Shown in pieces: positions 1 through 61,493 of a stretch of 64,000 nt of DNA (positions within the stretch are counted from its first letter, which is position 1; each line of letters opens with the position of its first letter). Source of the stretch: Dillenia suffruticosa (taxonomy: Eukaryota; Streptophyta; Magnoliopsida; Dilleniales; Dilleniaceae); contig JAVTVX010000020.1 in assembly GCA_033439265.1 (NCBI GenBank), positions 12,728,001 to 12,792,000 of the forward strand, in the 5' to 3' direction. The notes beneath the pieces were generated by a model. That model saw only the letters and a list, made by a program, of their open reading frames with translations, was not told the origin of the DNA and ran no database searches. The translations under genes were made by a program, and so were the position numbers.

Positions 1-1070
1 TAGTTAAAAGCGCGCTGAAGAGAGCTTAAACCGCGAAGTGCAGCTCTTGGGCTTTTTCTTGCATAAAGCGCAGTGCAAATGAGAAAGCACAGGTGAAGTG
101 TGCTGGAGCGCAAAAAAGTGCAAAAAGCGCAAGGTACAAAAATGCAACGCTTTATTTTTTTTTATCTTTATTTTTTTTAATTTAACAAGTCTAATATAAT
201 TTCAACCATCGGATCTTATTAATTGAATGTTTAATGGTGAAAGATGAGGTGGTGTGTCCATGGATGAGATGCACTAGATTGCTATTTAGGGTTAAAATGT
301 TTGGGGACTCTTGGTCATAAAGTTTGGAAGCAAAGCAGATCTCACGGGTACCGGGTACATTTCTCTCTTCTTCTTCTTCTTTCTCTGTTATCTTCTTCTC
401 AGTTTTTCTTCTTCTACTCCATCTTTCTTCTCCGTCATCTTCCAGCCTCTATTTTTTTTTCTCCATCATTCTACAGCTTCTTTCTTTAATCTTCCCTCTT
501 TTCTTCAATTATAACCTGATACTGCTCCTCTGTTTTTTTGTTTTTGTTTTTTTTTTCAGTTGCTGCTGCCCTGCTTCTTTATGTTCTTTTTTTTTTTTTA
601 CCCTATTCAGTTGCTCTCCTGCTCTCTTCTGCTTCTTTCCGTTCATTTTTCTGATCACCATTTGCCAAATGATATCAGGATATTATGCAAGGGCTTTGTT
701 CAATTGGGTAACATTTGGTTTAAAGTTATTTAAGTTAATTTATATGCCTTTTCAAAAAACTTCACGAAACACATTTTCTTGTTATTTGGTATAGAAAATG
801 ATTTTTTTTTTTTTTTTGGTTCAATTGGGGAAGAGAAACTTTGGTATTGGATGAAGTTTGATTATTTGTTGTCATTAAAAACTTTGGCTCTTATGTATGC
901 TGATGTTCTACTATTATAACATATTTCATTTGCTATTATTGTATATCCAAATATATATTTTGATTTTATATCTAAAGTGCGCTTTATATAAAAAAAGCTC
1001 GTGTTTCGCTTTGCACTTTGCGCTTAAGTCCCAAGAGGGCCTATCCCTTTTTTGCGCTTTTAGCTTTTAA
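1..1070. mobile_element. Possible non-autonomous DNA element with GC-rich inverted ends
   Basis: The first 160 bases and positions about 1000-1070 are rich in AAGCGCA/GTGC-type words. The left side carries CTCTTGGGCTTTTTC near 45; the right side carries the inverse sense, CCCAAGAGGGCC near 1030, next to GCACTTTGCGCTTA. This gives loosely inverted GC-rich ends around an AT-rich, T-rich middle. The true left end may lie outside the window and no target duplication was found. It could equally be two unrelated GC-rich repeats. No protein is supported inside. Confidence 0.3.
361..640. repeat. CT/T-rich low-complexity tract
   Basis: Runs of CTT, TTC and T dominate this stretch. They create overlapping open frames rich in Ser, Phe and Leu in all three plus-strand frames, which is what low-complexity pyrimidine DNA gives and not evidence of a gene. 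Confidence 0.7.
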
Positions 1071-1589
1071 ATACTATGCAAGCTAGAGTAAAACTACTTA
1101 TCATGCCAGCCTCATAAATCATTAGTTGCAGCCGCACGTTGAAACTATATAACCAAGCTGTTTGGTTTTTATAATGTATATCACAGTGTCATCCACTATA
1201 GCCAGATAATCACATAACTTTGATTCCGCTTGCTTTATCATGAAGAAAGTCCAGCAATTCCATACTATTTCTAAGGAAGACTTGGCAGCTCCAAATCCGT
1301 CACTGAATTAGCGACAGATAATTTTTATCACTAAAATCCATCGCTAATTTAGGGGAAAACAAATCTATCAAAAAATTATCCGTCACTGAATTAGCGACGG
1401 ATTCAAATCCGTCGCTGATTCCATTTGTCCTGCCCATGAGCCGGCAGAGCCACGTGCCCACCCACCCCAGCACCAACCTGCAACCTGCTCGCCCTGCCCG
1501 CCCAAGATATCACCCCCACCTGCCCGCCCGAGCCAGCTCCCCCGCGCAGCATCAACTCTTAATTGCTGGAAAATATCGCGCCTTCTGCT

Positions 1590-1662
1590 TCCACCGTGGT
1601 TCAAACTCAGAACTCCTGCATGAACCCTTGCACACACACAACCTGTAAACCACAGAGCCAAA
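1590..1662 (-). repeat. tRNA-like (SINE-head-like) segment, antisense, beside a GC-rich block
   Basis: Read on the minus strand this segment has a weak A-box-like TCTGTGGTTTACAGG followed about 30 nt later by a degenerate B-box (GAGTTTGAACC). Next to it (1436-1560) is a Pro/Ala-like GC-rich block. The same pairing of GC-rich block and B-box-like word occurs at 62055-62256. It is too degenerate to be a functional tRNA gene; a tRNA-derived SINE head is the best guess. Confidence 0.35.
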
Positions 1663-2221
1663 AATATTATTGTGATATAATTTTTTTTTTATTTATTATC
1701 TTTTTTCACATTTTTCTAATAATAATAAAATAATATATAATAACAATTTAAAATAATAAATATAAAAACTTTTTTTATTTATACCACCGACCTAAACTAA
1801 TAATAATTAAAAATAATAAATATGATAATTTTTAATAAAATAAAAAATAATAAAATACTAATTTAAAATAAAATAATAAATTAATTAAAAAATATATTAA
1901 TATTATATTTTGATTTCTTCTTTTTTCTTTTATTTTATTATTTTATTATTCTTTTTCATTTTTATTTTATTTTTTTAATCCATAATTTAAAAATGCATCT
2001 CAAAACTATAAAATTATAATTATCAATAAATTATAATATATTAATAATTTAAAAAATCTATATAATTAATCACAAAATATTTTTATTCAAATTTTAATAA
2101 AATTATTATATATAAGAAATGAAAATAGAAATAAAAAACAAACCAAAGGAAAAAAAAAGTAAGAATAGTAAACAAAAAGGTGAAAAAAAGAAAACAAAAA
2201 TATCATCACACAACACTAACA

Positions 2222-2555
2222 CTAAGCGGTGGTGCAGTGATGATATGTATTATGCTCAAATCCGAAATCTAAGATTCGAATCTCTCCACCTGCATATTTT
2301 TTTAGTATTAAAACAAAGGGCGTCCAGGCGCGGGTGCCCGCGCCTGCCTGCCTAGCGCCCGTGTGCCTACCTAGGCGCCCAGGCAGGCACGCGCGGCCGT
2401 GCGCGGGCGCCTGCTGAGGTGCGGGTGCCCGCGCCTGCCTGCCTGGGCGCCTGCGCGCCTGCTTAGGCGCCCAGGCAGGCACGGGCGCCCAGGCAGGCAC
2501 GCACGGGAGCCGTGACAGGCGCCCGTGCTTGCATACGCCGACACCCGCGCAAACA
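2222..2555 (+). repeat. tRNA-like segment followed by a GC-rich imperfect repeat
   Basis: At 2229-2300 there is an A-box-like GGTGGTGCAGTGATGA and a B-box-like AGATTCGAATCTC about 40 nt later, the spacing of RNA polymerase III promoters. From 2325 to 2555 follows a very GC-rich tract built from repeats of GCGCCCAGGCAGGCACG and its inverse, capable of strong hairpins, in an otherwise very AT-rich setting. Open frames across it (Ala/Pro/Arg-rich) are composition artefacts. Confidence 0.4.
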
Positions 2556-3072
2556 TTAATATTTAATTAAAAATTTTATATTATTGAATAAAATAATACA
2601 AATAAAATAAAATTAATTATACAATAATAAAAAATATTAAATCAAACAAAAAAAGTAAAAAAATAATAAATTAATTAAAAAATATATATATAATTTAAAT
2701 AAAATAAAATTTATGGTTTTTTTAAGAATTAAATAACATTATTCTTCTAAAAAATGAAATATAATATAATATAATAAAATGTAAATTAAAATATTATAAA
2801 ATAATAATATGATTCGTTAATATAAATTAATAAAATAAAAATAAAATAAAATAAAATTATAATTAAAAGAATATAAAATTCAGCGACGGATTTGGAATCC
2901 GTCGCTGAAATTATTAAAATAAAATAAAAATAAAATAAAATAAAATAAGATTAAATTCAGCGACGGATTTTAATCCGTCGCTAAATTACCGGATATATGG
3001 ATTGGGATTTTCATCTAGCGACGGAAAACAAATCCGCCGCTAAATTAATTTTTAACTTAAATATTACATATT

Positions 3073-3105
<33 letters not shown>

Positions 3106-3475
3106 AAAATTCTATTTAAAAAAGATTAAATTTTGCGACGAATTTTAAATCTGTGGTAAAATTTTGCCATATTTAGCGACAAAATTTGCAACGAAAAATT
3201 TTTTGTTCTCAATTAATGACAAATTTAGCCACAAAAATTTTTTTGTCACTAATTAGCGACGAATTTAGCCACGAAAATTTTTTCGTCACTAATTAGTTAC
3301 GAATTTTGCTATGAATGATGTGTCCGTCGCTAATTTAGCCACGACTTCCTTTTCATTGCAAATTTTGTGACAAATTAGCGACGAAAAACTTTTTCGTCGC
3401 TAAATCCGTCACAAAATAGAGACAAATCTTTTCCGTCGTAAAAATTCGTGACTAAAATTGTATTTTTTTGTAGTG

Positions 3476-4668
3476 TTCCCACACAGCAATTGCCTATCAA
3501 TTGGCCTCTCCTATTTAAAAGTTAAAAGGTTGTATTATATCCTTTTTTTTTCAAAATTTTTTGAATTACTATATCTCTATTGTATAGAGTCCATAACTCA
3601 CATTTATATTCGTGCTTTACATTAACAAATCTCTTAGTCAAGATCACTAAAGTATTAACATTTCAAGATTTATATTCATGCTTTACATTAACCTCTCTTA
3701 CTGGACACTTGTCGGACATACATTGGACACTCCAAGTGATGTGTATAATTTTTTGTTCTACTTTTGAATCCCGTACATTTCTTGAACACTCAGATATTTC
3801 TCATACACTGTTCAAACAGTCTTAAATATATTGGCCATTATTATTATTATAAAAATCTAAGTATAAAGCCTCATTCAAATGTAAATTAACAAAGATCATA
3901 TTTAGAGACCACATACCATTTATGTACTAATATTGCAATATTTATGAATGTGTCTTATTATTTCTATTGTTAGATAGAAATGGGCAAGCCTAGTTATATC
4001 TGTACATACATAAAAAAGAAATATAATCTAGTGCGGTTACCTAGATGTTCAACGTCCTATTTTTTTTAAAATTGATGTGTTTCCATGTGTGTGTCATGTC
4101 ATGTTCAATTGTGTCCTCTCCCAAGTGTTTGTGCTTCCTTGATTAAGATCCAAGGCTTGTTGAATTCAACATCTCAGGTTTAGGACTATTCAATCATCAC
4201 AGAACTGATTAATAAATTTGACTTAGGGATTGCAAATATAAGCATAAAATAGAGGAGGTAGATTTTCTAATATTTTTGGACATAAGTCATAACACATGGG
4301 GATCAGGATTGCATCAATGACTCAGAAGAGTGACAGAATCATGTCCAAATTAAATGTATCAAATAAGTGTTAACCATATGAATTAGAAACTTTACCATGC
4401 TAAAATAAACTTGTCACCAATTTGAAACACAGAATGATCCATATTCACAGACCCCCAATAGTAATAAAACCATGGACTAACAATAACAAAATACAAATAA
4501 ATGTATCAAAATACCATCACTTAAGAAATTTTAGAGACGTCGGCACGCTATAACATCAGAAAGCAAAATTATGAGTTTCTTTTAGAAGTCCCAGATAAAT
4601 CACATGAAAAGAAAAAAAATCAATATTCATTAACTCTTTCAATTATCTTTATTTTTTTCCTTCATGTT
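3476..4668. other. Unassigned AT-rich DNA
   Basis: I see no gene, RNA or clear transposon here. Short frames exist but have no recognisable domain. If the fucosyltransferase gene to the right continues this way, the stretch could be intron or downstream sequence; none of its later conserved motifs was found. Confidence 0.4.
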
Positions 4669-4673
4669 TGAAG

Positions 4674-4956
4674 TGTTAAGGCTCATATTCTCTTGTAAAT
4701 AGATGACCTGATTTAGCTCCTATATTATTGGTCTTCCCATAATTAATGGAGTTCCTATATTAGTGCTCTTCCCATAATTAGTGGAACTCCTATATTAGTG
4801 TTCTTCCCGTAATCCCATAATTAGTGGGATTGGTCTTCCCATAATTAGTGGGATTGCAGTATCAACTCATTACTATGATGTTTGTATATATATTCATCAA
4901 TGTCAAAGGAATTCAATATATATAAAAATTTACTTTCCAAACTCTGAGTTTTGACA
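4674..4956 (+). repeat. 5' LTR of the copia element
   Basis: The LTR starts TGTTAAGGCTC and ends GTTTTGACA, so it has the usual TG...CA ends. It contains a TATATATA stretch near 4885 and three to four copies of a 35-bp unit (starts 4718, 4753, 4788) built on TCCTATATTAGTG and CCCATAATTAGTGG. The matching copy is 9181-9463. Confidence 0.97.
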
Positions 4957-4968
4957 TGGTATCAGAGC
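4957..4968 (+). other. Primer binding site (initiator Met tRNA)
   Basis: TGGTATCAGAGC directly follows the 5' LTR. It is the standard primer site of plant copia elements, complementary to the 3' end of initiator methionine tRNA. Confidence 0.95.
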
Positions 4969-5009
4969 TTTTGCTCTAAACAATTTTTTCAAACCCTTCC
5001 TCCTCACTC

Positions 5010-8000
5010 ATGGCTACTCAACTTGTCTCTGCCTCCACCACTTCTACACCTGCTCTCTCATCATCTTCTACCCATACCTTCTCTATCAAACTCAATGGCA
5101 GAAACTACCTAGCATGGCGGGCTCAATTCATCCCGCTCCTTCATTATCAGAATCTCTATGGCTTCATCGATGGTACCTCCACTGCTCCTCCTCAGACTAT
5201 TGCCTCAACAACGACTCCAATCACCCAAATCCCAAATCCTGAATATGATCTTTGGTTAAAAAAAGACCAACTTCTCTTGTCTTGGATTCTCTCCTCTCTC
5301 ACCGAAGATATTTTCTCCTATATCATTAATCTTTCATCCTCCTTTGCTGTATGGGAAGCGCTAGCTCGTGCGTTTGGATCGGTTTCGCAAAACCGTCAAC
5401 TACAACTCCACATTGAATTACAGGAGTTTAAGCGGAATGATCTTTCTGTTTCAACCTATTTGCAACGTGCCAAGGCCTTGGCTGATGAACTCAGCACTGC
5501 TGGTCGCCCCCTTTCATCCGCTGAATTTAATGCAATTATTTATCGCAATATTAGAAGTGACTTTCACAGTATTATTACTGCATTAAATCTTTGCCCTGAT
5601 CCTGTGCCCTTCTACGAACTCCATGCTCAACTCGTGGCTCATGAAATACTGCTCAAAGCTACGCAGACCCACCTCTTGCTCATGTTGCTATGCGCACTTC
5701 TGCTGCTCCCTTACTACCTACCCCGCAACGCCAAGCGGCTACTGCATCCTCCAATTTTGGTTTTCAACGTCGCCCTCGTGCACCTTGCCAAATCTGTGGC
5801 TGGCGTAACCATACAGCCGGTTGTCGGCGTTATTCCAGGCAGACCTCTTCCCAGCCCTCCTTCGTATGGCAAGCCAACTACTCCTATGCTGGTCCTCAAC
5901 AATCCGCACCTCATAGCTATGGTGGCCATGTCTCACAACCTGTTTGGATACCCGATACTGGTGCCACCAACCACATCACTCCTGATCTATCTACTCTACA
6001 GATAAGTGATGAATATCGTGGTACTGACACTCTTCATGTCGGTAATGGCCAAAGGCTTCAGATTGCTAATATTGGTATGACTTCTATCCCTTCGGCAGGT
6101 GGTAAGCTTGCATTGAACTCTGTTCTACACGTTCCTAAAATTGTTAAAAATTTGTTGTCTGTTCAAAAGTTCACATCCGATAACAATTACTTTTTTGAAT
6201 TTCATCTCACTTATTTTCTTGTTAAGGATCGCTACACCAAGAAGGTGCTCCTCCACGGTCTCAGTGAGAATGGACTCTATCGTCTTCGCCCTTCCGTGAA
6301 GTTTGCCTACCTTACCACTATTCCAACTCTTCAACAGTGGCATGAACGCCTTGGACACCAAAATATGCGTACTATCTCTAATATTGTCAAATGTTTTAAT
6401 TTACCTTGTTCCAGTTTTAAGTCTCAACCATGTTCTTCTTGTTTCTTAGGCAAGATGTCTCGTTTACCTTTAGCCAGTGTCGAGCATAAGAGTACTGCTC
6501 CTTTTGATATTATTTTCTCTGATGTTTGGGGCCCTGCTCCAGTAATCTCAAGTCTTGGGCATCGTTATGTTGTTTTATTCATTGATGATTTTACCCGATT
6601 TACTTGGGTTTATTTTTTGAAAAATAAAAGTGATGTCTATTCCTGCTTTCTTCATTTTCAATCACTTGTTGATAGACAATTTAATGCCAAAATTAAAGCT
6701 TTTCATTCCGACTGGGGTGGTGAATATCAAAATCTCAAAAAACTATTTCAATCTAATGGCATTATTCATAGAATTGCTTGCCCCTACACCCATGAACAAA
6801 ATGGGACATCGGAGCGAAAAATTCACCATTTAGTTGATACTAGTTTAACTTTGTTAGCTCATGGTCATGTTCCCCTGAAATATTGGAATTTTGCTTTTAT
6901 AGTGAGCATTCAATCCATTAATCAAACACCAAGTCCAATTTTAAAACATAAGTCCCCTTATCAAATTCTCTTTGGCAAAGATCCTAATTACCTAGACATG
7001 AAACCTTTTGGATGTGCCATATCCCCTTTCCTTCGACCCTATAACCGCCATAAATTTGCTTTTCGCTCTCTACCCTGTGTATTTCTCGGTCAAAGTCCAA
7101 CCCATAGTGCTTATCATTGTTTAGACTTGGAAACCGGTCGGCTATACTTAACACGACATGCTAAATTTAATGTCAATAGTTTCCCATATCAATCTCGTCT
7201 CTCCCCCACCTTCTGATAGTTCTTCTTGGCTATAGGTTACAAGTCATTCCACTCACTGGGACTCTGCGGCTCCTTCAGGTATGGCTTTTCGTTCCAATTC
7301 AACTTCCTCTTTCTTATCTCCTTCCCTACGACCTCATCCCCACACTCCACCGTCATTCTCTACATCTCCTACCACTTCAACATCCCATCACAACTCCCCT
7401 GTACCTCCTATATCCGCATCTCCCGCCATTCCTACCTCTCCCAATCTAAATTTAATTGTTGACTTATCATCCTACACCGACCAGGCAACCTCAACATCCA
7501 CTTCTCCTACTCCAGCGCCTACTCCCGATCCTCCAACACCACCCATCCGAACCCACTACATGACCCTTCGCCCAACTACACTCCACAAAAGCCAAGCTCA
7601 CCTCTCTACCCAAACAACAACACAATTTTTAACGCAGGAACCGCATACTTACAATCAAGCAAAGCCATATGCTGAATGGCGGAATGCCATAACCAAGGAA
7701 ATTGATGCTCTTGTTTCTACTAACACTTGGACTTTGGTACCTCGCCCGTCTCACAAAAATATTGTTGGAAACAAATGGCTTTTTCGCATCAAGCGCAAAG
7801 CTGATGGTAGTATTGAGCGCTACAAAGCACGCCTTGTGGCCAAGGGCTATACACAAGAACATGGTGTGGATTATCTTGAAACCTTCAGTCCGGTTATTAA
7901 ATATACAACAATCCGCACTATTTTATCTCTTGCTACTATATCGGGTTGGTGTGTTCGGCAATTGGACATCTCCAATGCTTTTCTTCACGGGACTTTGGAA

Positions 8001-9174
8001 GATGAAATATATATGGAACAACCCCCTGGCTTTATTGATCCTAATTATCCTGATCATGTTTGTCATCTTTACAAGTCTCTATATGGCTTAAAGCAAGCTC
8101 CCTGTGCATGGTTTCATCGACTTTCTGAATTCCTACTTCAATTGGGTTTTCAATTCTCCAAGGCTGACACTTCTTTGTTCATATGTTGTGATGGTACCTC
8201 TAAGCTTTTTGTCCTTATCTATGTCGATGACATCTTAGTTACTGGCACCTCATCCACTCTAGTTGATTGGTTCATGACTAAAATTCAGTCCACTTTTCCT
8301 GTTTGTGACTTGGGTACATTGAATTATTTCTTGGGCATAGAGATACTACATCTACCAGATGGTCTTCTACTCTCTCAAGCAAAATACATTTCTGATCTTC
8401 TACACAAATTCCAAATGTCCGAATGCAAACCATGCCTTACACCAATGGCGGTCTCCCCCGCTCTCACCAAGACTTCGGGTGAACCTTTTAAACATGGTGA
8501 TCTATATCGCCAATTAATTGGTGGTTTACAATATGTTACCATTACACGTCCTGACATTGCCTTTAGTGTCAATAAACTTTGTCAATATGTGCACTCTCCT
8601 ACTACTATGCACTGGCAGGCACTCAAACCGGTTCTACGCTACTTGCAACATACTAAGCGGTATGGACTCTTCTTTTCCAAACACTCTTCTTTTGCAATTC
8701 AATGTTTCTCAGACAGTGATTGGGGGGTGCCCTGACGATCGCCGATCAACCAATGGGTATGCTGTCTATTTGGGCAACAATCTCATCTCTTGGGTCGCCA
8801 AAAAACAACCCACTATAGCTCGATCTTCAACCGAGAGTGAATACAAGTCCATGGCTAATGCTACTGCAGAAATTATGTGGCTTCATTCCTTGCTCAGTGA
8901 ATTGGGTTGTCTGTCATCCACGCCTGCCACTCTTTGGTGTGATAATGTTGGTGCCATTTATCTTAGTACCAACCCGGTATTTCATGCTCGTACCAAGCAC
9001 ATTGAGTTGGATTACCACTTTGTTCGGGAACAAATTCAGCAAGGACAGGTGATCGTTAAATTTATCTCTAGTGAAGACCAAATAGCTGACATTCTTACTA
9101 AGCCATTAGGCCGAGCTCTGTTTGAGAAACATCGCACCAAACTTCGACTACTGTCCCATCCACCATCAGTTTGA
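5010..9174 (+). pseudogene. Copia gag-pol coding region (fossil)
   Basis: Domains appear in Ty1/copia order. Gag (about 5010-5900) begins MATQLVSAS and includes the NYLAWRAQF region of plant copia gag. The protease region (about 5940-6120) shows DTGATNH. Next come the gag-pre-integrase segment and integrase core (about 6300-7200) with WHERLGH, FIDDFTRFTW and FHSDWGGEY. Reverse transcriptase (about 7640-8700) shows KARLVAKGYTQ and YVDDILVTG. RNase H (about 8720-9174) shows [10 protein letters not shown] and ends near the purine tract. Together these make copia identity near certain. The region is broken and is treated as a fossil. Confidence 0.95.
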
Positions 9175-9180
9175 GGGGGG
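9173..9180 (+). other. Polypurine tract of the copia element
   Basis: GAGGGGGG lies immediately before the 3' LTR and just after the end of the RNase H region, where plus-strand priming is expected. Confidence 0.9.
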
Positions 9181-9463
9181 TGTTAAGGCTCATATTCTCT
9201 TATAAATAGATGATCTGATTTATTTCCTATATTATTGGTCTTCCCATAATTAATGGAGTTCCTATATTAGTGCTCTTCCCATAATTAGTGGAACTCCTAT
9301 ATTAGTGCTCTTCCCGTAATCCCATAATTAGTGGGATTGGTCTTCCCATAATTAGTGGGATTGCAGTATCAACTCATAACTATGATATTTGTATATATAT
9401 TCATCAATGTCAAAGGAATTCAATATATATAAAAATTTACTTTCCAAACTCTGAGTTTTGACA
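9181..9463 (+). repeat. 3' LTR of the copia element
   Basis: Same length and ends as the 5' LTR, with about seven substitutions. It is followed directly by the target duplication tgaag. Confidence 0.97.
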
Positions 9464-9640
9464 TGAAGTCCTGGTGGAACATATCTGCCATTTAAAAGAT
9501 TGCTTCCCTCATCCTCAAAGACATAAGTCAGGATGGTCAAACTTGTTCCACAATCCATAGAAAAATTGTCAATTGCCACTAACAAGTTTTTTATTTTTTC
9601 CTTTCTCAAATCTAAGAGTGTAGTTATTCGTAAAAATATG
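9464..9640 (-). other. Coding-like fragment next to the copia insertion
   Basis: On the minus strand this stretch reads NLLVAIDNFSMDCG, then TYVFEDEGSN and LNGRYVPPGL. That is a balanced, non-low-complexity peptide that looks like real protein-coding DNA. The copia element starts right after PPGL, so an older exon may have been cut there. The MDCG ... Y.FEDE pattern faintly recalls malectin-like domains of receptor kinases, but I cannot identify it with confidence. It does not resemble the missing part of the fucosyltransferase to its right. Confidence 0.22.
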
Positions 9641-10932
9641 ATAGTTAAGAGTGTAGACGAGAAAATGACCTTAGATAGAAATGAGTGACATAGAAGAATC
9701 CGCACAAAGTAACTTAACATATTTTAGGTATATATATATATTTTATTCCCTTTTTTTCTTCTTATTATTATTATTATAGTTATTTTTTATTTCAACTTTT
9801 AGTGTATTTCTTTATTTATTTTATTTATTATTTACTTATTTATTTATTCATTTAAATCATTTTTAAATTTATCTCTTAAATGATCGACCCCAAATTATTG
9901 GATTTAAGGCTCAGTTTTGTTGTTGTTATTGTTCATTTCTCATTTGCCAACCTTTTTTGTTCTTAACATGGCCCTTATTTACCTCTTTAAAACGCCATCT
10001 ACTATGTTCCAACCAATGTCATCACATCTCATAGGAAATAGTCTTTCTTTACCATGAACACAATCATTTGGTCACAATGCCTTAAATCAATTAGAGACTT
10101 GTTGTAGAACCCATTGTTCTATTAGCCCTTTCAAATTCACTTAACCACAAAGCATGAAAAAAAGGGTGAACCCCATAGGTATGTGCCCTTAAAAATGTAA
10201 TATAACCTCCCATAAAAGATAATGTCTTTTTCTACCCAATAAGGTTCCTCTCAAAACACCCCTAAGACATCCCAAATGGCCTTATTCATATATTTTGATT
10301 CTAAGGCGGGCTGGTGGCTACTTATGACTCTACCTTACCATGATAACTAAAAACTAACTTTGAAAAAAATGGATCAAGTTCGCCCAATCCACACTGAAAT
10401 ATAGTTGTAAGGGTCTAACCACCTTTGCAGCCCTTCAAATCACTGCTATCCATATCCCTAATTTTGCCAAAGCTTCATCACAGATATACAGTGTTACTGT
10501 TATTCCTTCTAACCGTGGTTGCATGTAAATTACTGTCGTATTTCTCTATCCAGTTCAATCAAACAACATGTTATATCTAAGGAGCATGCTCCATTGCTGC
10601 TCGTCAATGAGTACGCAAAGGCCTATCAAAAATCGTTGATGTAACCATCCACCAATATAAGAACAATCAAATGCTTAAGGATAGACTAATATGTTCACTT
10701 TTCATTTGCACATAACCCACCCTGACTTAAAAAGGTATCTCTCTTAGGTTTTCCGTTTCTATTTTTGAAGGCAAACCATGTCATTGTGAACCCACAACAT
10801 CTAGTTCCTACGAGTATCAAAAGAGATATCAATTTCATAACCACCAGAGTCCTAAATGCGGAAGAGAGAAAGTGAAAACAAATAACATGCCATGATTATG
10901 CATTTTCATAATACCCAAAATAATAAAAGTAC
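9641..10932 (-). other. Start of the FUT13-like intron, otherwise unassigned
   Basis: Sequence following the exon-1 splice donor at 10932. I searched the minus strand for the next expected block of plant alpha-1,4-fucosyltransferases (RRVGDPLRVYMDLEAG and GWEDIF) and did not see it. No other gene or clear repeat is recognised. Confidence 0.4.
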
Positions 10933-11418
10933 CTGAAACGGGGGTGTAATAGTCTCAAACAACAAAGCGTCAGGCTTATCAGCAAGAACCGAAGACTTAG
11001 TCCATAAACAACTCAAACCACATCTATACGAGTACAAATTATCCAAATTTTCAGGAATCCAAGTCCAACCTTTTACCAGAACACTAACATGATTCATCTT
11101 CAAGTCCCAACAATCCGAATCACCACCATTTTCTTTCACGGAAGAAGAGGAAGATCTATTAGACCCAATAATGAGAAATTCCTTGTGAGACTGCCTGAAA
11201 CGAGCACAACCCACTTCAGAATCCCATAGTCTGGAGGCACGGACCAAGTCATCAAAAGGGTAGCGCTTGTTCGATTTGATGAAGGTGTGTGGATCGGTGA
11301 GAGACAGAAGCGAAGTGCAGAAAGAAGGGAAATCTAGGAAGCCAGAGAAGAGAAGGATGAGGAAAGCAAAACCCAGCAACATTGCAATGGTAAAGGTGTT
11401 GATGGAATTTACAGGCAT
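10933..11418 (-). CDS. FUT13: Alpha-1,4-fucosyltransferase (FUT13-like), exon 1
   Basis: This exon encodes the N-terminal 162 residues of a GDP-fucose-dependent alpha-1,4-fucosyltransferase, the Golgi type II membrane enzyme (GT10 family) that adds fucose to form Lewis-a on complex N-glycans. It begins MPVNSINTFTIAMLLG, followed by a membrane anchor (about residues 7-27, FLILLFSGFLDFPSF). The stem region has WDSEVGCARFRQ, and then come the conserved blocks HVSVLVKGWTWIPENLDNLY, CGLSCLWTKSSVLADKPDAL and LFETITPPFQ, closely matching what I recall of Arabidopsis FUT13. The exon ends CAG|GTAC in phase 0 at 10933. I chose the ATG at 11418 because it matches the family start; an in-frame ATG at 11448 lies in the transposon target duplication. 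The catalytic C-terminal half is not visible anywhere in the window, so the gene has either a very long intron or is truncated. A MULE sits 22 bp upstream. Confidence 0.87.
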
Positions 11419-11449
11419 TCGGATTACCCTTTCTCTCTCCCTCTTCATC
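11419..11449 (-). promoter_or_regulatory. Remaining 5' leader of FUT13-like gene and MULE target duplication
   Basis: The leader immediately before the start codon is CT/GA-rich. Positions 11441-11449 read ctcttcatc, repeated exactly at 17600-17608 on the far side of the MULE. This is the 9-bp target duplication and shows that the leader once continued into the GA repeat at 17613. Confidence 0.85.
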
Positions 11450-11670
11450 GAGCATTGTATGGAAATAACATTAAATTAAAAAAAAAAATTAAAACAACAC
11501 ATTTTAAAAAATTTTTACAAAACTAATACACCTATATCGTAATTTCAAATTACAACATACACTGTTCATACATGTCGTGACTTGAAGTCACGACATATGT
11601 TTAAAACGTGGTATGTTGTGACTTTAGGGCATTCTAATGTCATGTCGTGAGTTCAACTCACAACATGCTC
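11450..11670 (+). repeat. Left TIR of the MULE
   Basis: Aligns with the reverse complement of the right TIR through blocks such as GGAAATAACATTAAATT, TATCGTAATTTCAA, CTGTTCAT and GGGCATTCTAAT. It contains a perfect 25-bp palindrome with 12-base arms at 11572-11596 and an imperfect one at 11641-11667. Confidence 0.9.
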
Positions 11671-12246
11671 GAACTTAAACCGCTGAAATCTTGTTCTTTT
11701 CTCCCTTCTCTTTTTTCTTTCTTTCTTCCCCATTCTGCTTCTCTCTGCTCCAAGGCAGACGAAACCCTTCTCCGCCTCTACGCCCACAAACTGCAACAAC
11801 CAAGGACATCTGCAACCTGGGAGAAGTGAATTGACCGCAATCCACTCCTTTTGAAAGTTCCACACGCGAAATTTGACGAACGTAAATTGTTGTTTGTACT
11901 CTTGAAATTTGAAATTTTATATGTTTAAATTGATTAAATTTTGATATACATTATTCAATTGATATGCTATTTGTTGATTTAACTATATTTTGGAAAGATA
12001 TAATTAGATATTAATGTTTTAGGGTTTAGGTTTTTGTTGGAAATGAATGACAATTTAGGGATTAGAGTTTTTTTAATTTGGGATAAAATTATATTTTAGG
12101 GTTTTTTGATAAATGTATTAAAAGTAAAATTAGTTAGATTTATTAATTGTAGTTAAATAAAATTAGAAAGTTTTTTGATAAATTTTGTATATTGTTTGTT
12201 GTTTTGTTACAAATTTAATTATAGGGTTGTAAATGAAATAGCGGAT

Positions 12247-14798
12247 ATGGTAAAATTGTTATATTACACAAATGGTGAAATTGTGAAGGGTGAAAATAGA
12301 GTGGGCTATGACCGTGAACTTTCGAGGTTGATTTGGGTGAAAAAAGATATATCTTTTAATGAGTTGGTAACCATGGTCTGTAAGGGACTTTAAATCAATT
12401 CGACAACACGTAGAGATCTTTCATCATTGCCCTATGTCACACATGCAAGGGGGAATATAAGGTATGTATTGGTACCGATCAATGATGATGATGATGTTCT
12501 GAACTTGATGGACTTTGCGGTGGCTATGGGAGTGGGTACAAATCATGAATTGTATATAAAGGCATACAATGGTCTGACGTTTGTGCCTGTACAACAAGAT
12601 TGTGATTATGATGAAGAATATCTATATATCGAATCTCGAGTGTATATTGCAATAGTTGATATGGATAATGATGTGGATGAAGAAGAATTGGCCGAAAAGG
12701 AGGCGGAACAAGATGTCGAAGAAGAGGATGATGATGAAGAAGATGGCAGATAAGCTAGTCGTAGTAGTGGTCGTAGTTATGGAAACCAGACGATGTTTGG
12801 GTCATCTTCACAGCCTGCACCCATTCATGGTGGTAGGAGATATCTCTATAACGGAGTTGATGAGTCAATTCCTTTCATGCGAACTGCACCGGGAGGAGAT
12901 GGTTATATTACTTTTGAGGAAGATTGTCGATTGACAATCGATAGTGAGAGTTTTAACAATAAGTGAAGAAAGGTATGACATTTGAGTCGAAAGATGAACT
13001 TATACATTTTGTAAAAATGCATCATGTGGAGAATCACTATCAATTTCGTGTTGGGAGACCCCTACACTTTGGACAGCGGTATGTACTCAAAGGGACGAAG
13101 GTTGTGGGTGGAGGTTGCATGCACGTAAAATAAGACAACTTGATGCCTTTGTGATAACTGTTATGGAGGGACCGCATACATGTGTCAATGCTGGGTTGAC
13201 GCAAGATCATAGGCAGTTGGATTCAAATATGATGGCCTGACAGTTTGTTAACTATGTAAGGGAAGACCCAAGTATCAAAGTCTATTTCCTACAAACCGTT
13301 ATGACGGAGAGAACCACGTATGCAATTTCTCGAAAACAAGTTTGGGCCGCAAAAAGAAGGGCGATTGAGATGGTATACGGGAATTGGGATGAATCATACA
13401 ATGAGCTGCCTAGAGTTTTGGATGCAATTATGCAAAAGAATCAAGGATCACAAATGTCATGGAAATTGGGTCCGGCCCGAGCGAAAGGTGAAATGGTGTT
13501 TGAAGCTGTATTTTGGGCATTTGGTCCTAGTATCATGGCATTTAGAAGTTGTCGGCCATTGATAAGTATAGATGTGACTTACTTGTATGGGAAATATAAG
13601 TACAAGTTGTTGATTGCATGCAATAAGGACGGAGCGAATCACATAGTGCCGTTGGCATCCGGATTGGTGGATGTAGAATCACTAGCATCGTAGTCATGGT
13701 TTTTAATGTGCGTGTGAGACTATATTGTCTTAGATAGAGAGTGACCAATATGCTTGATATCAGATCAACATGAAGGGATAAGAGTTACGATTGCTCGTCC
13801 GGAGTTTGGATGGTTATCTCCGCATGCCATTTGGCGTTTTTGCATGAGGCATGTCGCTAGTAACTTCAACACGCATCACAAAAGTCAGGCTTGTAAGAGA
13901 GTCGCCATAATTGCTGCATTACAATCACAACGCAAGAAATTTGATATTTATATATGTGGCGAGAATGAAGGAGATAAAAAATGATATCCCCGATTACTTC
14001 GCGAACATTGGCCCTGAACATTGGACTCTCTCTCACGATGGTGGCTTTCGTTATAGCTATATGACGACCAATATCAGTGAAAGTTATAATGCCGTGCTAA
14101 AAGGTGTAACGAATCTCCCAATTACAGCTTTGGTACTTAAAGCATTTTATAATACGGTGAACTATTTTGAAGGTAGAATTACTGAGGCGAAAGCAGGGAT
14201 GACAAGAAGAGAGCGATATACGAAGTATGCAAATGCCATGCTATTAAGGTGGATGAACACCGCTAACCTTCATACGGTTGTCTCTTTTAATAGGGAGAAT
14301 AAGATTTTCGAGATAGAAACATGTTATAGACAAACACGATATGGCCACAAGGGAGGAAATAAACAGATCGTCGACGTCAATAATGAACATTGCACATGTG
14401 GGAAATGGCAAACGTATAGAATACCTTACTCACATGCAATCGCTGCACTATCATGGACCATGATGAATGTTCATATGATTGTTGGAAAGTGGTATACGTG
14501 GCAACATCTACTTAAAGTGTACGAGTTATATTTTTCACCGGTAGGAGATAGATTTGGATAGCCAATCTGATCGTACCCAACTATCATTCCGGACGTATCA
14601 CTAAAACGTGAGAAAGGAGACCAAAGTCATCTCGATATCATTACGAGAAGGATATCCGAGAATCATCTTCGCGGGTATCGTGCGGCAGTTGTAGTGTTGA
14701 GGGGTCATAATCGGAGAAGATGCACGACACAAATGAAATGTGGTATTTGTGGGAGACAGGGTCACAATCGAAGAAATTGTCCAACCATATCGCGTTGA
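12247..14798 (+). pseudogene. MURA-type MULE transposase, decayed
   Basis: The start at 12247 reads MVKLLYYTNGEIVKGE, the usual N-terminus of plant MuDR transposases. It is followed by an acidic run (EEEDDDEEDG, near 12720-12750). The DDE core is visible: ISIDVTYLYGKYKYKLLIA (first Asp, near 13560-13615), LISDQHEGIR (second Asp, near 13755) with CMRHVASNFN after it, and NISESYNAVLKG (Glu, near 14075). A SWIM zinc finger, CTCGKWQTYRIPYSH, lies near 14390, and a CCHC knuckle, CGICGRQGHNRRNC, near 14737-14780 with a stop at 14796. The reading frame changes at least near 12390-12430 and 13940, with in-frame stops near 12391, 13691 and 14559, so no full protein can be made unless unrecognised introns explain some of these. 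Confidence 0.88.
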
Positions 14799-15010
14799 TA
14801 TAGATAGTTTTTGTGTTTTAGTTAAAAATTATGTATTTCTTATTATAACGGACATCATATATTTGATTGTCGTATATTTGACTTTTTTAAAATGTAATTT
14901 GTGTTTTAATTTGATTACTTGTAATCTAAATTAATTGAACATTTGAAATGTAATTTATTTTTAACATTACGTATTTGTAATCTAATGTGTTATTTTTTTT
15001 TATTTTGCAG

Positions 15011-16978
15011 ATGGATCCAGAACCTTCTGATCCGAGTGTTCTCCGGTTACAGCGACGACATCGTTCTTCTCGCCTTTGGGAGGGAGTCGGCACGACGGTT
15101 ACTCTCACTTGTTGTTGACGCGAGGCCGTGTTACGCCATCGGGACCACCGTTACATCGACGAGAGAGTCCTTCCTCTTTTGGAGCACTCCGGATTTTTGG
15201 GCATTACTCGATTTCGTTTCATTCAATTCAATTGGCATTTTATCACTGCTCTAGTTGAGCGACGGAGGCCAGAGACGCATACTTTTCACCTTCCCTATGG
15301 TGAGATCACTATTACCCTTCAGAATATTGAGGTTTTGTTAAGGTTACCTATGGATGGCCATCCGCTCGTTTCTACGACGACGGGAGTGGCATGGGTGATG
15401 TATGCGAGAAACTTTTAGGTGTTAGGCTACCACGGTCTGCTTTTAGAGGTTACACTTTGAGCATGCCGTGGTTGTCTGAGGTTTTTGATGATTTGCCCAC
15501 TAGTATTGATGATATAGCAATTTTACGATAGACACGGGCTTATATTTTACTTTTGATAGGGGGTGTCCTGTTTTCTGATAAAACTGAAACTTTTGTACAT
15601 TTATAGTTTTTATTATTTTTAGAGGATTTGGAGTTGTCAAGTAGATTTAGTTGGGGATCTGCGTGTTTGGCATATCTATACAGACACCTTTGTATAGCCA
15701 TGCATGTAGATGCACGTGAGATTGGAGGAGTGCTAGTTTTGTTATAGATTTGGAGGTGGGAGTGGTTTCCGTATATGGCTCCTATTCGACGAGGTTTGCA
15801 CGTAGATGGGGATGGACCACTCGGTTTGCGGTGGCACACTCAGTTTGATATCACTATATTCCCTACACACGTAGTTTCCATTTATAGGGAGGCACTCGAT
15901 AGGCAGACGGTCGATCAGGTCATTTCAGTCCCGTACTCGGATGATGTATTGTCATCCTTCCCTGACTACTGTCACAGGGGGAGGGATATTTGGCACTCAC
16001 AAGTCCCTTTGATTTGTTTTACTATCATGGAGTGGCACTTTCTAGATAAAGTGTTACGACAGTTTGGAGGCTTGTAGTACGTTCCAGGTGAGTGTGACAC
16101 TGAGGACAGACTCCATGATACGAGCACGCAGGGTACTCTAGAGGTCGATTGGTCGGCAGCTTATGCAGTGTACGTTGATCTCTAGATTCACCGACACGAC
16201 CATCTAGTTCCGCTAGATATCTCCTTCGGACCTGCGCTCCATTTTGACTATTTGGTCTGATTTCGCTCCATCTCCTGCAGATTTGTCGATCATTGGGGAG
16301 CTTCTTTGACTTACGTGGTAAGTTTTCCTCTACTGCCTTCTTTTCATTCTCAATAAAAGAATTTAATTTGTTGTTTTAATTATTTTTCACATATTGCTTG
16401 TAGGGGGACACTTTGCATGAGATACAAGACAATTCCGGTGCCGACGTTCGTGGCCTTGCTGAGTCGGCCATCTCGGTTCTGGCAGATGATATGGCACATC
16501 TTTTCAGCGTTCGCCCCGAGACAGATGGCTCAAACGGTGGTAATGCAGGCCGAGCACATGGACGACGACGAGGGAGAGGACAGTGTACGAGACCTCAACG
16601 CTCGTCCGATCATGCGTCACCACCACCATCATAGCAGCCCGCGAATGTCGTAGGACCTTCTATTACGTTCGGTGAGTCTTCAGATTTCTACACGCCTGTG
16701 TTTGATGACTTCCCTCAGGTTTTCACTTTGGGGGCTCCTCAGAGGGGAGCTCGTCTCGATAGCTTTATGAATGAGGGACTGACACAGGATGTGAGAGATG
16801 ATGCACCACTGGTGTATCATGTATCCCCGCCTATTTTCTCTGATTCCCACAAGCAGGTATAACCTCCTCCCAGATCACACATATAGATGATATGAGATTA
16901 GTATCTCGTGATGACTCTATAGACAGTAGAGTAGCTTTAGGTCTTAGACAGTACACTAAAAGAAGACGACGACATTGA
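15011..16978 (+). pseudogene. Plant mobile domain (PMD) protein gene carried by the MULE, decayed
   Basis: An ATG at 15011 (MDPEPSDPSVL) follows TTTTGCAG. It leads into YIDERVLPLLEHSGFLGI, FNWHFITALVERRRPETHTF and LPYGEITITLQNIEVLLRLP, the signature start of the plant mobile domain shared by MAIN, MAIL1 and the PP7-long-form proteins. Later pieces fit the same domain: WGSACLAYLYRHLC (near 15655), WRWEWFPYMAPIRRG (near 15750) and WHTQFDITIFPTHVVSIYR. A likely intron runs 16318-16403 (GTAAGT...TTGTAG), and the C-terminus ends in a basic KRRRRH at 16978. Frame changes occur near 15120 and 15415, and stops interrupt the 15480-15750 part, so it looks broken. Known PMD proteins act in gene silencing and meristem maintenance; what the MULE-borne copy did is unknown. 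Confidence 0.8.
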
Positions 16979-17344
16979 TTTTTTTTTTTATAATTTGTAA
17001 CTTCTATTAAAATTAATAAAATTAATTTTATTTCTTTATTCTGTTCATTGTACTTTATTTAGTACTTTTTGGTTTTTGAAATTTGTTGTTAATCAGTTAT
17101 GATATTTGGATAGTATTGTATATGAAATCTGGTTATGAGGTCGAAAAATGGTTGATTTGATTACTATTGGAGTTTGTGGTATTTGTATTGTATTTTAGTA
17201 TTTGTGTTGTGATGTAAATTTAGATAACAGAATGGTTGATTTGGTCACTATCGGAATATGTGGTGTTTTTTTTATGTTGTAGTATTTGTTTTGTATTGTA
17301 AATTTGGACAGTATATAATATGAAAATTGATTTTGGGCAGTAGA

Positions 17345-17599
17345 CAGAAACATGTCGTGAGTTCAACTCACGACATGGTATTAGAATGCCCTATGTCGTG
17401 AATTGAAATTACGACATGTCTTATGTCGTAATTTCAAGTCACGACATATCACGTCTTAAACATATATCGTGACTTCAAGTCACGATATGCATGAACAGTA
17501 CATGTCGTAACTTGAAATTACGATATAAATGGGTTAATTTTGTAAAAAGTTTTTAAAAAGTATTATTTTAAAATTTAATGTTATTTCCGTACAAATTTC
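17345..17599 (-). repeat. Right TIR of the MULE
   Basis: Inverted copy of 11450-11670, somewhat longer. It holds about five palindromes, including a perfect 27-bp one (13-base arms) at 17351-17377 and imperfect ones near 17394, 17421, 17463 and 17502, all on the TCGTGA/TCACGA or TCGTAA/TTACGA core. Confidence 0.9.
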
Positions 17600-17609
17600 C
17601 TCTTCATCA

Positions 17610-17612
<3 letters not shown>

Positions 17613-17666
<54 letters not shown>
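17613..17666. repeat. (GA)n microsatellite, former FUT13 5' leader
   Basis: About 27 GA units directly right of the MULE target duplication. Read on the minus strand it is a CT repeat ending at the duplication, then joining the GA-rich leader before the FUT13 start. CT-rich 5' leaders are common in plants. Confidence 0.85.
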
Positions 17667-17667
<1 letters not shown>

Positions 17668-19542
17668 CGTAATATTGTGAAGACTATTGGGTAGGTGGGG
17701 TTGGATGGGGGACTTGGATTACAGTAGAGTAGGATACAGCCATAGAGGTTGGAGGAGCGGTTGAAAAGGTAATGTGAAGTACACGAGCCGTAGGTTTTTC
17801 ATCTCACGGATTCGGTATCGAGTTTTTGCATGGAAATAATCTTTTTTTTATTATTATTTCTTAAAATAACCCTATTAAAAAAATTATAAAAATAATCTAT
17901 ATTTATAGAGTTTTAGATTTATATGAATAAGTATTAAAAATTTGATAAACTTTTAAAATGTATGTAAACGGTGTATATTAGGGTTTTTAAAACTCAACAT
18001 ATCATGTGAATAGTATAAGATATGTCAAGTCTAAAAAATTTAATAAATATATATCTAGTTTTTAAGTTACCCTTATATTTGATTTTTTCAACAAAATTGT
18101 TTTAAGAATAAACAAAAAAGGGGTTACTTCCATCTAAAACTCTCCGTATCAACCCATTCATGAGTTTCGGGACGGAGCAGGGAGGTAAAGATGGTCAAAT
18201 GTCAAATTCCTGGAGCCGAGCGTCGAGACATGAAAATTTTGTGTGCAGTAATAGCATCCCATGCGATCTAATGTCCATGTCGTTTGGTACATCACGCCAA
18301 TATAATAGTTGGTAAGGGAAAAAATAATAAAAAAATTTTTATTTAATTAACAGATGCTATATTTGAAATAAAGACAAAATAATGCACCAACACTAAATGT
18401 AGTTAATGTAGTTAATGGTGCCAACATTATTTGTTTTATTTATACTCTTTTATGGGATTTTCTTATTATTTTCTGGAGCTGATTTGAATTTGTGTTGTTG
18501 GAATAATGTAGTTAATGGTGTCAAATGTAGTGCCACTTGAGCTGCTTCTGCACGGTGTTAGTTTTAACAATTTTGTGATTTTCTTCTAATCAACAACATA
18601 ATTACCAAATATCGTAACTTATATTTTTAATAATTTTAACAATTTTGCGTCATTTTCTTATTTGTTTTGGATTTAAGAATGCCATTTCTTTCTCCTTTTT
18701 CTTGGGTTAGGTTCTGCTCAATGTATATTTCATAAAAATTCTTTTCAGTGATGATATTTCATTATGTTCAGTAATGTTTTTCTTTTTCATTGCCATATTT
18801 GATTAGTTTTTAGCAGCAACATGCATGATAATATAGGACCAGGACTATTCTTTTGTTAGTTGCTACAGATAAACAGGAAGAAATTTAAAATTATGGTTTT
18901 ATTGTCATTAAAAAAATTATACCCATTAACATACTTATCCACAGTGCTCTTTAACAATTTCTCTTATAAATTTGGAATTAAGAAAAAACAAAAGTTAAGA
19001 TGATGATCTTAATGCCTTTCTAGTCATTGTTCTCAGACCCTTAAAACCCAATCCAATCCTCACCTATGTCCATAATGGCAAGGCTTCGCCCATCCACTAA
19101 TTACTGAGTGCGCCTTGCATTTTCTTTTTGTTGTCGCTCTAGCATGTAGCTCTCAGTGGCTCAAAGAGAAAACAATTTGGAGGCTGTCAATCTTGATTTG
19201 TTGATTGGTAAAATTCTGATCATAATTAGTGGCATCTTATGCCTATCGGCCGGACAAACATTCAGATGTAAAGAGGTATCAGGACAGATGTGCCGGTGGG
19301 TGATGATACCCGCCCTATCTTTCCTGTCACCCTATATGGCAAAAGCAATTGGGAGCAAAAATTGTTGCTGGTGATGTGGCTAAAGGATCATCTCTTCTCT
19401 TAGCTTGGACTTTCATCATGTTTTAGTTTGTGTGAGAATTTGAGTGGAGATATTGTGTTAGTGTTTCTTTTAGAGTACGAGAAGGAAGGATTTGGAACCA
19501 AAGGGCTCACGGTGACTTGAAGCTACCTGGGTTTGGAATTGA
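17667..19542. other. Presumed upstream region of FUT13-like gene, no gene recognised
   Basis: AT-rich intergenic DNA. A 72-residue frame at 19156-19374 (with a hydrophobic segment) has no recognisable domain and no supporting context. No transposon ends were seen. Confidence 0.4.
17897..17908 (-). promoter_or_regulatory. Candidate TATA box of the displaced FUT13-like promoter
   Basis: On the minus strand this reads CTATAAATATAG, a close match to the plant TATA box. It lies about 230 bp upstream of the CT-repeat leader. It is plausible as the old promoter but AT-rich DNA gives such matches often. Confidence 0.3.
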
Positions 19543-34859: not shown

Positions 34860-37139
34860 GTGTTTATTTCCAGCAGCACTTGCAATCCTCTGATTTCATG
34901 TATTGCAAATTTTCTTGCAAGTGATTGCCGTCCATCTATTTTTCTTTCCATTTGACGATGCAGCAGCAATTTTTTTTTTTTTTTTTTTTTTTTGCCCGAA
35001 CTGTTTGTTATATGCCTTATTTCCTTTTTTTTTTTGTTGGGAGAAAAGTAAAAAAGCACAAAAGAAAAGGTAAAGTACCAAAATAAAAAATAAATTGGAG
35101 TAAGAAACGAAATGGTTGTTTCTTGTTGGCTAGCCGGCGAGGGTCTTGTGACGAGAATAATTCTTATTACATTTGTATCATGGGTTATTTTCCTTTTTTG
35201 AGGCAAATTTTCTGAAATGGGTGAACTCAAAACCCGGTCCAATTTTCTTTTGGCTTAGTATTATCCTTTTGTACCATTATTTTTTTTCGTGTTTGATATT
35301 GATTTTTTTTTTTTTTTAATCATGAGCTAATAGACCTATGTAAAATCTCTAATATTTGCAAAACCTATAAACTGTTCTCTTTCATTTATTCACTCTCTCT
35401 TTCTCCCTGAGTTTTCATTTCTCTTGGTTATAAAGAGATAATAAAAATTATAAAAATACACTAATTCATAAAAATTTTAATTTGAAATCCTAGGGAAGAT
35501 ATTTAAATAATAATTTTTTACCAATCAGGTATCTTAAAAAAAAAAACCATAATTTTCCACCTCTCTCATTCGTGCGGTTGTCTTTTATCTTTTGTTGCGT
35601 CATTGAAGAATCGATATTAAGTTTTGAGAGTAGATGTAGCCTCTAAACAGATGTGCCCTTGTGGTGTGAGCCTGTGCCTTGTCGCTCAATCCAAAAATCC
35701 GTCAAACGCCTCATCCATGCTTGAATGTCATCAACCAATTTGGAATAACTAGGAACATTAGACACTATCTCCTTCATAAAGGACTTCATGATTTTTAGTA
35801 AAAATTATCACAACAATATGAATAAAATTATGAATTTATATTACCAATAGCAATGAAAGTATACATTTTAAATAAAAATATCTCTTTATAACATATTTTG
35901 ATATTTAATTTGAATATGTCCTAAGAGAGCAATAAGATATTTCATTATCAAGATTTGAGAATAAAAGAGATAAAATTATTTGGTGCAACCTCTTTAATGA
36001 TGAAGAACTCTTGACTTTGACAAATAATCGAGAACTTTTGTCTATGATTAAGTATGGGATAATTTTTTTTAATATATTATAAATTAATATCCAGAATTAT
36101 ATTTTGATTAGTTTGGTATCGGTCTCATTTTAGGGAAAATTTTTCTAATATAATTTTTTTATTTTTAAATTTTGAATTCAAGACTTGATTAATAACTCTA
36201 ATATTTTTACCCCTTAAACCGATTATCCGTTAATTAAGTATATGATAATAATGATAATGCCAAAGTGGGCACACATTAGATAGGTAGGGTGAACATAATG
36301 ATTAAATGATGACCGCATGGTTATTCATTTAAAATTAACTAAGTCATCATCAAAAGGTGTTCATTTGTTTGGTTTTCAAGTTTTTCGGTTAATTTGGTTT
36401 GACATTTTTTGAATCCCAAATAAAAAATTGAATCAAATTTTATTTAAGTCAAATTGAATCCGATCGAATTTATAATTTGATTTTCGATTTGAATTCAAAT
36501 TGAATCGAGTAAACTGAATAAATCGAATTTAATATTTGATATCGATATTTTCATACGAATCTGATTTAACCGAATTCAGATTAATAAAATCAAATTCGAA
36601 TGAATATTTTATGTACTATTTTATTGTTTGCTTAAAAAACAAAAATTGCTGATCAAAGTTTACATAAAAAAAGAATAAATAATAAATAATAAATAATCAA
36701 AATAAATAAAAAAGGGATAATAACTACTTTACCGGTCCAGTTAATAAAATGCAATTGTCTATAAAAATAAAACCACAAATAACTAGTGAAATATAGAATA
36801 ACCAAAAAAATAATAGAAAATTATAGACCGATCGAATACATAACAACAGAATCCCCATATCACATAATGTAAGTACAAGATTCACAAAAGGCTGCCACAA
36901 AGCAAGAAAAGGGACAACATAAATAAAAAAATATATGAAAATTATTGATGTTGACTTATATTTAACTTTTGATTATGAATAAAATAATTTAAAAAGAACG
37001 TATTAAATTTAGTAAATATTAATTGAATACTTAGCTCAGCAAAAAACAAATTGGGAATTAAAAAATGCATTAAGAAGAATGAAATCAGTTAAACGGCTAA
37101 ACATTCTTTGCATATTCAACTGGCTCCCTAGTATAGTAA
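34860..37139. other. Downstream of SAUR, AT-rich, no gene recognised
   Basis: Contains poly(T) (34972-34993), possible SAUR polyadenylation words (AATAAAAAATAAA, near 35083) and AT-rich DNA. A stretch at 35630-35790 looks more complex but was not identified. Confidence 0.4.
36360..36640. repeat. Dispersed repeat rich in AATTGAATC/TCGAATTT words
   Basis: Dense inverted words on the theme GAATTCGAATT/TCGGTTAATTTGG. A similar block is at 54440-54720. This style of sequence is common in plant genomes as a non-autonomous repeat; I cannot name its family. Confidence 0.4.
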
Positions 37140-59824: not shown

Positions 59825-59869
59825 TTCTTGACTAAGAGAAAAATCACTTACCTCGTTGACCCTCTTTGG

Positions 59870-61386: not shown

Positions 61387-61474
<88 letters not shown>

Positions 61475-61493
61475 TATTAACCCTAAAATTCCT
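60371..61493 (-). repeat. 5' LTR (in element orientation) of the Athila-like element, split by CACTA
   Basis: Starts TGGTGGATGTC (plus view), aligned with the LTR at 55126. The match runs to CCCTAAAATTCCT at 61493, where the CACTA-like element begins. The rest is presumably beyond the window. Confidence 0.85.
61389..61471. repeat. (TA)n microsatellite, 83 bp
   Basis: About 41 TA units within the right LTR. The same place in the left LTR (56125-56135) has only 11 bp. Confidence 0.97.

Follow-up and report, generated by a model that had tools for sequence, protein, structure and literature searches.

Can a gene that a transposon has split from its own leader still be expressed, or has it been lost? 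The question is raised by a 64,000-nucleotide window of the Dillenia suffruticosa genome (C20:12728001-12792000, where C20 is the contig), in which a Mutator-like element (MULE) lies next to the start of a gene resembling the fucosyltransferase FUT13. A preliminary description of the window proposed that the element had parted a CT-rich leader from the FUT13-like ATG and that, with exon 1 still open, the locus was a good case for studying host expression driven from a terminal inverted repeat (TIR). After searching the whole genome (596 Mb in 37 contigs) we conclude that the C20 gene is very probably a FUT13 duplicate that was hit by the MULE in its leader and is now a pseudogene, while the other duplicate, on contig C17, is intact. 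The insertion, the empty sites at paralogous loci, the lesions of the C20 copy and the intact C17 duplicate are each demonstrated at the level of DNA sequence.

The insertion site is made up of the following features, with coordinates given in the window:

11450..17599, plus strand: Mutator-like element of 6,150 bp, with a transposase gene and a plant mobile domain (PMD) gene both on the plus strand
11441..11449, no strand assigned: left copy of the target-site duplication, CTCTTCATC; on the minus strand it reads GATGAAGAG and contains an in-frame upstream ATG
17600..17608, no strand assigned: right copy of the target-site duplication, 9/9 identity with the left copy
17609..17800, minus strand: displaced FUT13-like 5' leader, with (CT)n at 17613-17665 and with 17698-17800 being 74% identical to the C17 leader
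10933..11418, minus strand: FUT13-like exon 1 of the C20 copy, 162 codons with no stop and a CAG/GT donor at its end

The duplicated 9-mer occurs only these two times in the 64-kb window, counting both strands. The two flanks are identical for one base more: 11440 and 17599 are both C, and the inverted-repeat alignment assigns the C at 17599 to the element end. From base composition the chance of a 9-mer match at a fixed offset is about 1e-5. Sharing of a 9-mer at this same offset was seen at 3 of 57,832 positions, and two of these three are the insertion site itself, counted twice because the match extends through the extra base. The proposal that a 9-bp duplication brackets a MULE of about 6.15 kb is borne out by the 6,150 bp between perfect 9-mers, by the TIR ends and by the empty-site paralogues described below. 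A (GA)26 microsatellite array adjoins the element.

The FUT13-like ATG (MPVNSI) lies at 11418-11416 on the minus strand. The reported distance of 22 bp upstream of this ATG holds for the duplication but not for the MULE itself, which is 31 bp upstream and only 1 bp upstream of an earlier in-frame ATG within the duplication (11448-11446, minus strand). All three FUT13 copies found (C20, C17 and C27) retain an in-frame ATG 30 nt ahead of the MPVNSI start, and its conservation suggests that the real FUT13 start may lie ten codons further upstream.

Independent proof of the insertion is provided by paralogous leaders that lack the element. In the C17 copy the leader runs without interruption from (CT)n through a single 9-mer to the ATG, with no MULE, and homology between C17 and the window on the exon side stops at base 11449 (blastn). 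The third FUT13 copy, on C27, consists of a leader and the first part of exon 1 (C27:5802894-5803154, locus L045; E 1.5e-37, residues 2-88) and also has the 9-mer once and no MULE; its MPVNSI-type ATG is altered and the upstream in-frame ATG is retained. The site is empty in two of the two paralogous leaders found, and these bear out the earlier view that a MULE with a 9-bp duplication parted the CT-rich leader from the FUT13-like ATG. Because the MULE is missing from both C17 and C27, the insertion would have come after the duplication that gave rise to the C20 copy. The number of FUT13 loci is taken from two protein searches of the genome, one of which gave further weak matches on C8 and C21 (E 0.02-0.2).

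What remains of the gene beside the insertion? The exon 1 open reading frame (ORF; MPVNSINTF...) matches the solved structure 7yro over residues 7-162 (E 2e-52; E 1.2e-52 in another search, against 7yro_A), and the exon is indeed still open as far as its donor site. We take 7yro, labelled only "Fucosyltransferase" in the search, to be mango FUT13, and the name FUT13 itself is likewise our assumption. Exon 1 is the only FUT13-like exon in the 64-kb window; the whole-genome search located exons 2 and 3 about 22.1 kb away, on the strand and contig of exon 1. The reading of the window as holding a lone exon-1 fragment was dropped for this reason. The preliminary description had counted as evidence against itself a full FUT13 elsewhere with exon 1 as a duplicated fragment. 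In substance this has come about, with a full gene present on C17, although exon 1 of the window belongs to a whole duplicated gene and not to a fragment; an isolated piece of exon 1 is found on C27 instead. The intron between exons 1 and 2 accounts for the left end of the window:

1..10932, minus strand: left part of intron 1; the whole intron is about 22.1 kb, against 7.8 kb in C17
4674..9463, plus strand: long terminal repeat (LTR) retrotransposon in intron 1, with 283-bp LTRs showing 7 differences and TGAAG at 4669-4673 and 9464-9468

This assignment is made because the blocks at 1089-1296, 3480-4663, 9474-9588 and 9624-10932 match C17 intron 1 in order. The retrotransposon, of Copia type as judged by eye from its ORFs, is not present in C17. 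Beyond the window the C20 gene carries several lesions: an in-frame stop in exon 2, a 6.9-kb element that interrupts exon 3 and has LTRs 94.4% identical over 446 columns and a flanking 5-bp duplication (CATAG), and a loss of frame at the 3' end. The exon-3 insert showed no ORF reaching 150 residues. If a functional FUT13 is defined by an ORF that runs through the GT10 domain, such an ORF is present in C17 and is broken in exons 2 and 3 of C20, and we therefore regard the C20 copy as a pseudogene, a whole duplicated gene but a broken one.

The C17 gene has an uninterrupted ORF of 408 residues, which matches 7yro_A over residues 7-407 (E 1.7e-216) and PF00852 with an E value of 4.4e-31. In both matches it resembles the plant alpha-1,4-fucosyltransferase FUT13 of family GT10, whereas the C20 copy has no unbroken catalytic domain. 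An Arabidopsis galt1 fut13 double mutant is described as having normal stems (PMC7991798), and in the present genome the C17 gene is still there. The regions C17:12.307-12.357 Mb and C20:12.660-12.739 Mb (about 50 kb versus 79 kb) match mostly in order and on the same strand, with a few sparse matches beyond the upstream side of the gene and some out-of-order repeat matches, a collinearity that indicates segmental or whole-genome duplication. Between the two FUT13 copies the synonymous distance (Ks) is 0.205 and the ratio of nonsynonymous to synonymous distance (Ka/Ks) is 0.23 overall and 0.32 in exon 1. With 7yro as the outgroup, 18 residue changes are derived in C20 and 6 in C17, with 15 unassigned (two-sided binomial P 0.023); when only sites with the same residue in an Arabidopsis sequence and in 7yro are counted, C20 has 12 changes and C17 has 4 (P 0.077). 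The C17 locus also has a stretch of about 3.6 kb (C17:12357480-12361110) without a counterpart at the C20 locus, starting about 270 bp upstream of the C17 ATG; the blocks that flank it lie close together upstream of the C20 copy. This stretch opens with the MULE-terminus-like sequence GAGGTTTGTACGGA and has only short, chance-level matches to the C20 MULE.

A duplication spanning FUT13 and its neighbourhood would have produced the two FUT13 genes on C17 and C20. Afterwards a PMD-bearing MULE would have inserted by ordinary cut-and-paste transposition, making a 9-bp duplication, into the CT-rich leader of the C20 copy beside the start codon. Today that copy is a pseudogene marked by the exon-2 stop, the exon-3 LTR element, the loss of frame at the 3' end and faster protein change. 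We infer that the MULE cut the C20 gene from its promoter and helped its decay, with expression lost or changed; the C17 copy presumably supplies FUT13. The loss of one copy following a genome or segmental duplication is a general pattern, and the C20 and C17 pair is like it in having a collinear intact partner, asymmetric protein change and several independent lesions. Only the closeness of the MULE to the ATG is unusual.

The element itself contains the following features:

11450..11670, no strand assigned: left TIR, containing three 25-bp near-palindromes
17340..17599, no strand assigned: right TIR, with more copies of the 25-bp near-palindrome of the left TIR
12157..14798, plus strand: broken MULE transposase, with PF10551, SWIM and CCHC matches on separate fragments, all below threshold
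15014..16862, plus strand: broken PMD gene, of which two fragments match PF10536 (E 7.7e-18 and 4.3e-16) and exceed its gathering score

The TIRs are about 220-260 bp long, with aligned segments of 151 nt at 83%, 59 nt at 76% and 43 nt at 91% identity. A duplication within the 8-11 bp range of MULEs, long TIRs, membership of a dispersed repeat family and a PMD gene together place the element among the PMD-bearing MULEs. In the transposase, PF10551 matches one fragment with E 0.00035 and 21.4 bits against a gathering score of 27.6, and the SWIM and CCHC finger matches are also under their own gathering scores (Pfam, on fragments of a broken frame). Catalytic-like D, D and E motifs, identified by eye, lie at 13565, 13757 and 14070, and between them are stops at 13691, 13715 and 13742 and a frame change. 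Because these stops and frame changes part the motifs, the copy at 11450-17599 is predicted to be unable to make transposase, and the intact transposase frame of an autonomous MULE is missing from it. The near-palindromes in the TIRs are 25 bp long, of the type ATGTCGTGACTTSAAGTCACGACAT, and lie at 11534-11666 and 17352-17526, with three on the left and five in register plus one overlapping on the right (allowing up to 3 mismatches between arms); none with TIR cores was found elsewhere in the 64-kb window. The MULE shows no CpG depletion of the kind that long methylation would leave, its observed/expected ratio being 0.98 against 0.73 for 20000-64000. TATA-like sites near the TIR and leader were at about background frequency and were not used, and the window had no hits in Rfam and tRNA scans.

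Searching the genome with the left TIR gave at least 39 other full-size matches at 78-87% identity (among the 40 of 367 candidates that were scored, the C20 element included). Six sibling elements for which both ends were fetched have body distances of 0.090-0.105 to the C20 MULE, and the tree of the seven is star-like, with terminal branches of 0.048-0.061 (0.051 for the C20 MULE). Perfect 9-bp duplications flank five of these seven (the C20 element, L025, L026, L027 and L028); the duplication in L023 matches at 8/9 positions and in L024 none was convincing. Five of the six siblings align over at least 98% of the PMD-holding body, as judged from the body alignment, the Pfam scan having been made on the C20 element only. 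The PMD gene (15014-16862; loci L023-L027) is carried along by this multi-copy family. MULEs that target microsatellites have been described (PMC5907723, in part), and a microsatellite-targeted MULE was considered and set aside: the duplicated 9-mer lies outside the (GA)26 array, and none of the six siblings has an obvious microsatellite, although with 12 flanking bases this is a weak test.

Did the MULE kill the gene, or did it land in a gene that was already dead? That it was the first to arrive and cut off the promoter, with the coding lesions following under relaxed selection, is favoured by its terminal branch of 0.051 per site, which exceeds the half-divergence of the LTRs (0.029 for the exon-3 element and 0.0126 for the intron-1 element) and stays below half of the duplicates' synonymous distance (0.10). 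Damage to expression would also be expected from an insertion beside the start codon, and we give this order close to an even chance. A terminal branch is, however, an upper bound on the age of an insertion, and transposon and coding clocks may differ. The pooled duplication clock, with 1 mismatch in 54 positions over six MULEs, points to a younger age (P 0.029 on the assumption of an age of 0.05 for every insertion), although it is biased to clean duplications, the best-matching register having been picked and L024 dropped. In addition, the relaxed period on the C20 branch, 0.026 (0.006-0.043) under a simple model that extends the 18:6 split to all changes, fits the exon-3 LTR element better. 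That agreement in time, the independent lesions of the C20 copy and the young MULE permitted by the duplication clock all suit the opposite order, in which the copy was dead before the MULE landed and the insertion was neutral; this is quite possible, if well short of even. It fits poorly with the branches of the MULE family, which are longer than the exon-3 LTR half-divergence, and with the insertion preferences described for maize and rice, where Mu preferentially inserts near the starts of highly expressed genes and occupancy by Pack-MULEs is highest immediately upstream of transcription starts (PMC7337890, in part). These preferences favour insertion into an active gene, and in view of the Pack-MULE peak a position directly ahead of a gene is a usual one. 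Taken at face value, a branch of 0.051 against a relaxed period of 0.026 would place the arrival of the MULE before constraint was lost; 0.3% of simulated values exceed 0.051. The C20 FUT13 would then have been selected for a time with the MULE 31 bp upstream, expressed via the TIR or by splicing, and have died when the exon-3 LTR element inserted, which we think unlikely.

Some observations weigh against reading the C20 gene as a MULE-struck pseudogene. The Ka/Ks of 0.23 implies that the C20 copy was constrained through much of its history, and it may have gone on working for some time after the MULE arrived; the pseudogene could also still be transcribed. Exon 1 is still open, which is no strong contradiction: if lesions were as dense in it as in the MULE transposase, 1.5 stops would be expected (2.0 lesions including frame changes), and the probability of none is 0.23 (0.13). 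That transcription of the C20 gene still starts in the left TIR, or crosses the MULE by splicing, and yields a FUT13-like product is in our judgement highly improbable. The open exon 1 and the 31 bp of its own leader that the ATG retains count in its favour, and hcf106, studied by Barkan and Martienssen, is reportedly a precedent for an outward promoter in a Mu TIR. Promoters are known in long Mutator TIRs (PMC3310237, in part), and a rice MULE upstream of PsbS1 is accompanied by higher reporter activity (PMC4178011, in part); no usable statement on outward promoters of Mu TIRs was found in the literature searched or in the available parts of PMC10794571, PMC2563033 and PMC3806735. Against such a product stand the in-frame exon-2 stop and the 6.9-kb exon-3 element. 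The product would stop at about residue 180, short of the GT10 domain, and the stretch up to there has no Pfam match up to E 0.1. Any TIR transcript that begins upstream of 11455 would include an ATG out of frame with the gene, in a frame that overlaps the start. Because of this ATG and the stop ahead of the GT10 domain, which every transcript spliced to exon 2 would meet, a working FUT13 from the C20 copy is very unlikely. Scarcely credible is an assembly artefact, in which misjoins produced the MULE or the lesions, or C17 and C20 are a pair of haplotypes. Nothing was found in its favour: the duplication is clean, the sites are empty and homology stops at the predicted base, while a synonymous distance of 0.205 and non-coding divergence of at least 20% in many blocks suit duplicate loci better than alleles.

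The expectation that the locus would be a good case for TIR-driven host expression is not supported in view of the exon-2 stop, the exon-3 LTR element, the 3' frame loss and the intact C17 gene. The significance of the MULE site is small because the C20 copy is a dead gene with an intact partner; the case is one of ordinary genome decay, and the observation of the insertion itself is correct and firmly supported. An apparent model of transposon-driven expression becomes the documented loss of one duplicate gene, and claims of promoter-split genes should first be checked against the remainder of the gene and its duplicates. The intact C17 gene, the MULE-split C20 gene and the C27 fragment form a small natural series in which the age of insertions can be set against the time when constraint was lost.

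Among known systems, the element resembles the plant MULEs with a PMD ORF (VANDAL and other groups, PMC6446971 Table 1 and PMC5418596, both in part) in its 9-bp duplication, its TIRs, its putative transposase with sub-threshold SWIM- and CCHC-like matches, and its PMD. MULE target-site duplications are given as 8-11 bp in PMC6446971, and VANDAL TIRs as 46-174 bp in part of its Table 1, whereas the TIRs of the C20 MULE are longer. Its PMD gene lies downstream of the transposase with no fusion seen, and both genes are broken. PMD-C members fused to MULE transposases occur in several grasses and Amborella (PMC5418596), and eudicots are described as having mainly genic PMD-C (PMC7156037, in part). 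If the host is a eudicot, as it is taken to be, the clade of its MULE-borne PMD would merit attention. OsMULE-JSS, the element upstream of rice PsbS1, is likewise a single MULE with a 9-bp duplication near a gene and is missing in relatives; it lies 0.4 kb upstream with higher promoter activity in a transient assay, whereas the C20 MULE is separated by 31 bp from a pseudogene's ATG (PMC4178011).

Elsewhere in the window there are arrays of a palindromic repeat of about 30 bp (GCGACGAATT/CGTCGC) at 1290-3480, 37000-39200 and 61490-63930, with CACTACAAAAAA-like ends beside them at 3464 (minus strand) and 61494 (plus strand). Together these resemble what we take to be CACTA-type subterminal repeats. 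There is also a 236-bp near-tandem duplication of 92% identity at 59867-60335 and a 1-kb direct repeat of 84% identity at 55126-56135 and 60371-61399.

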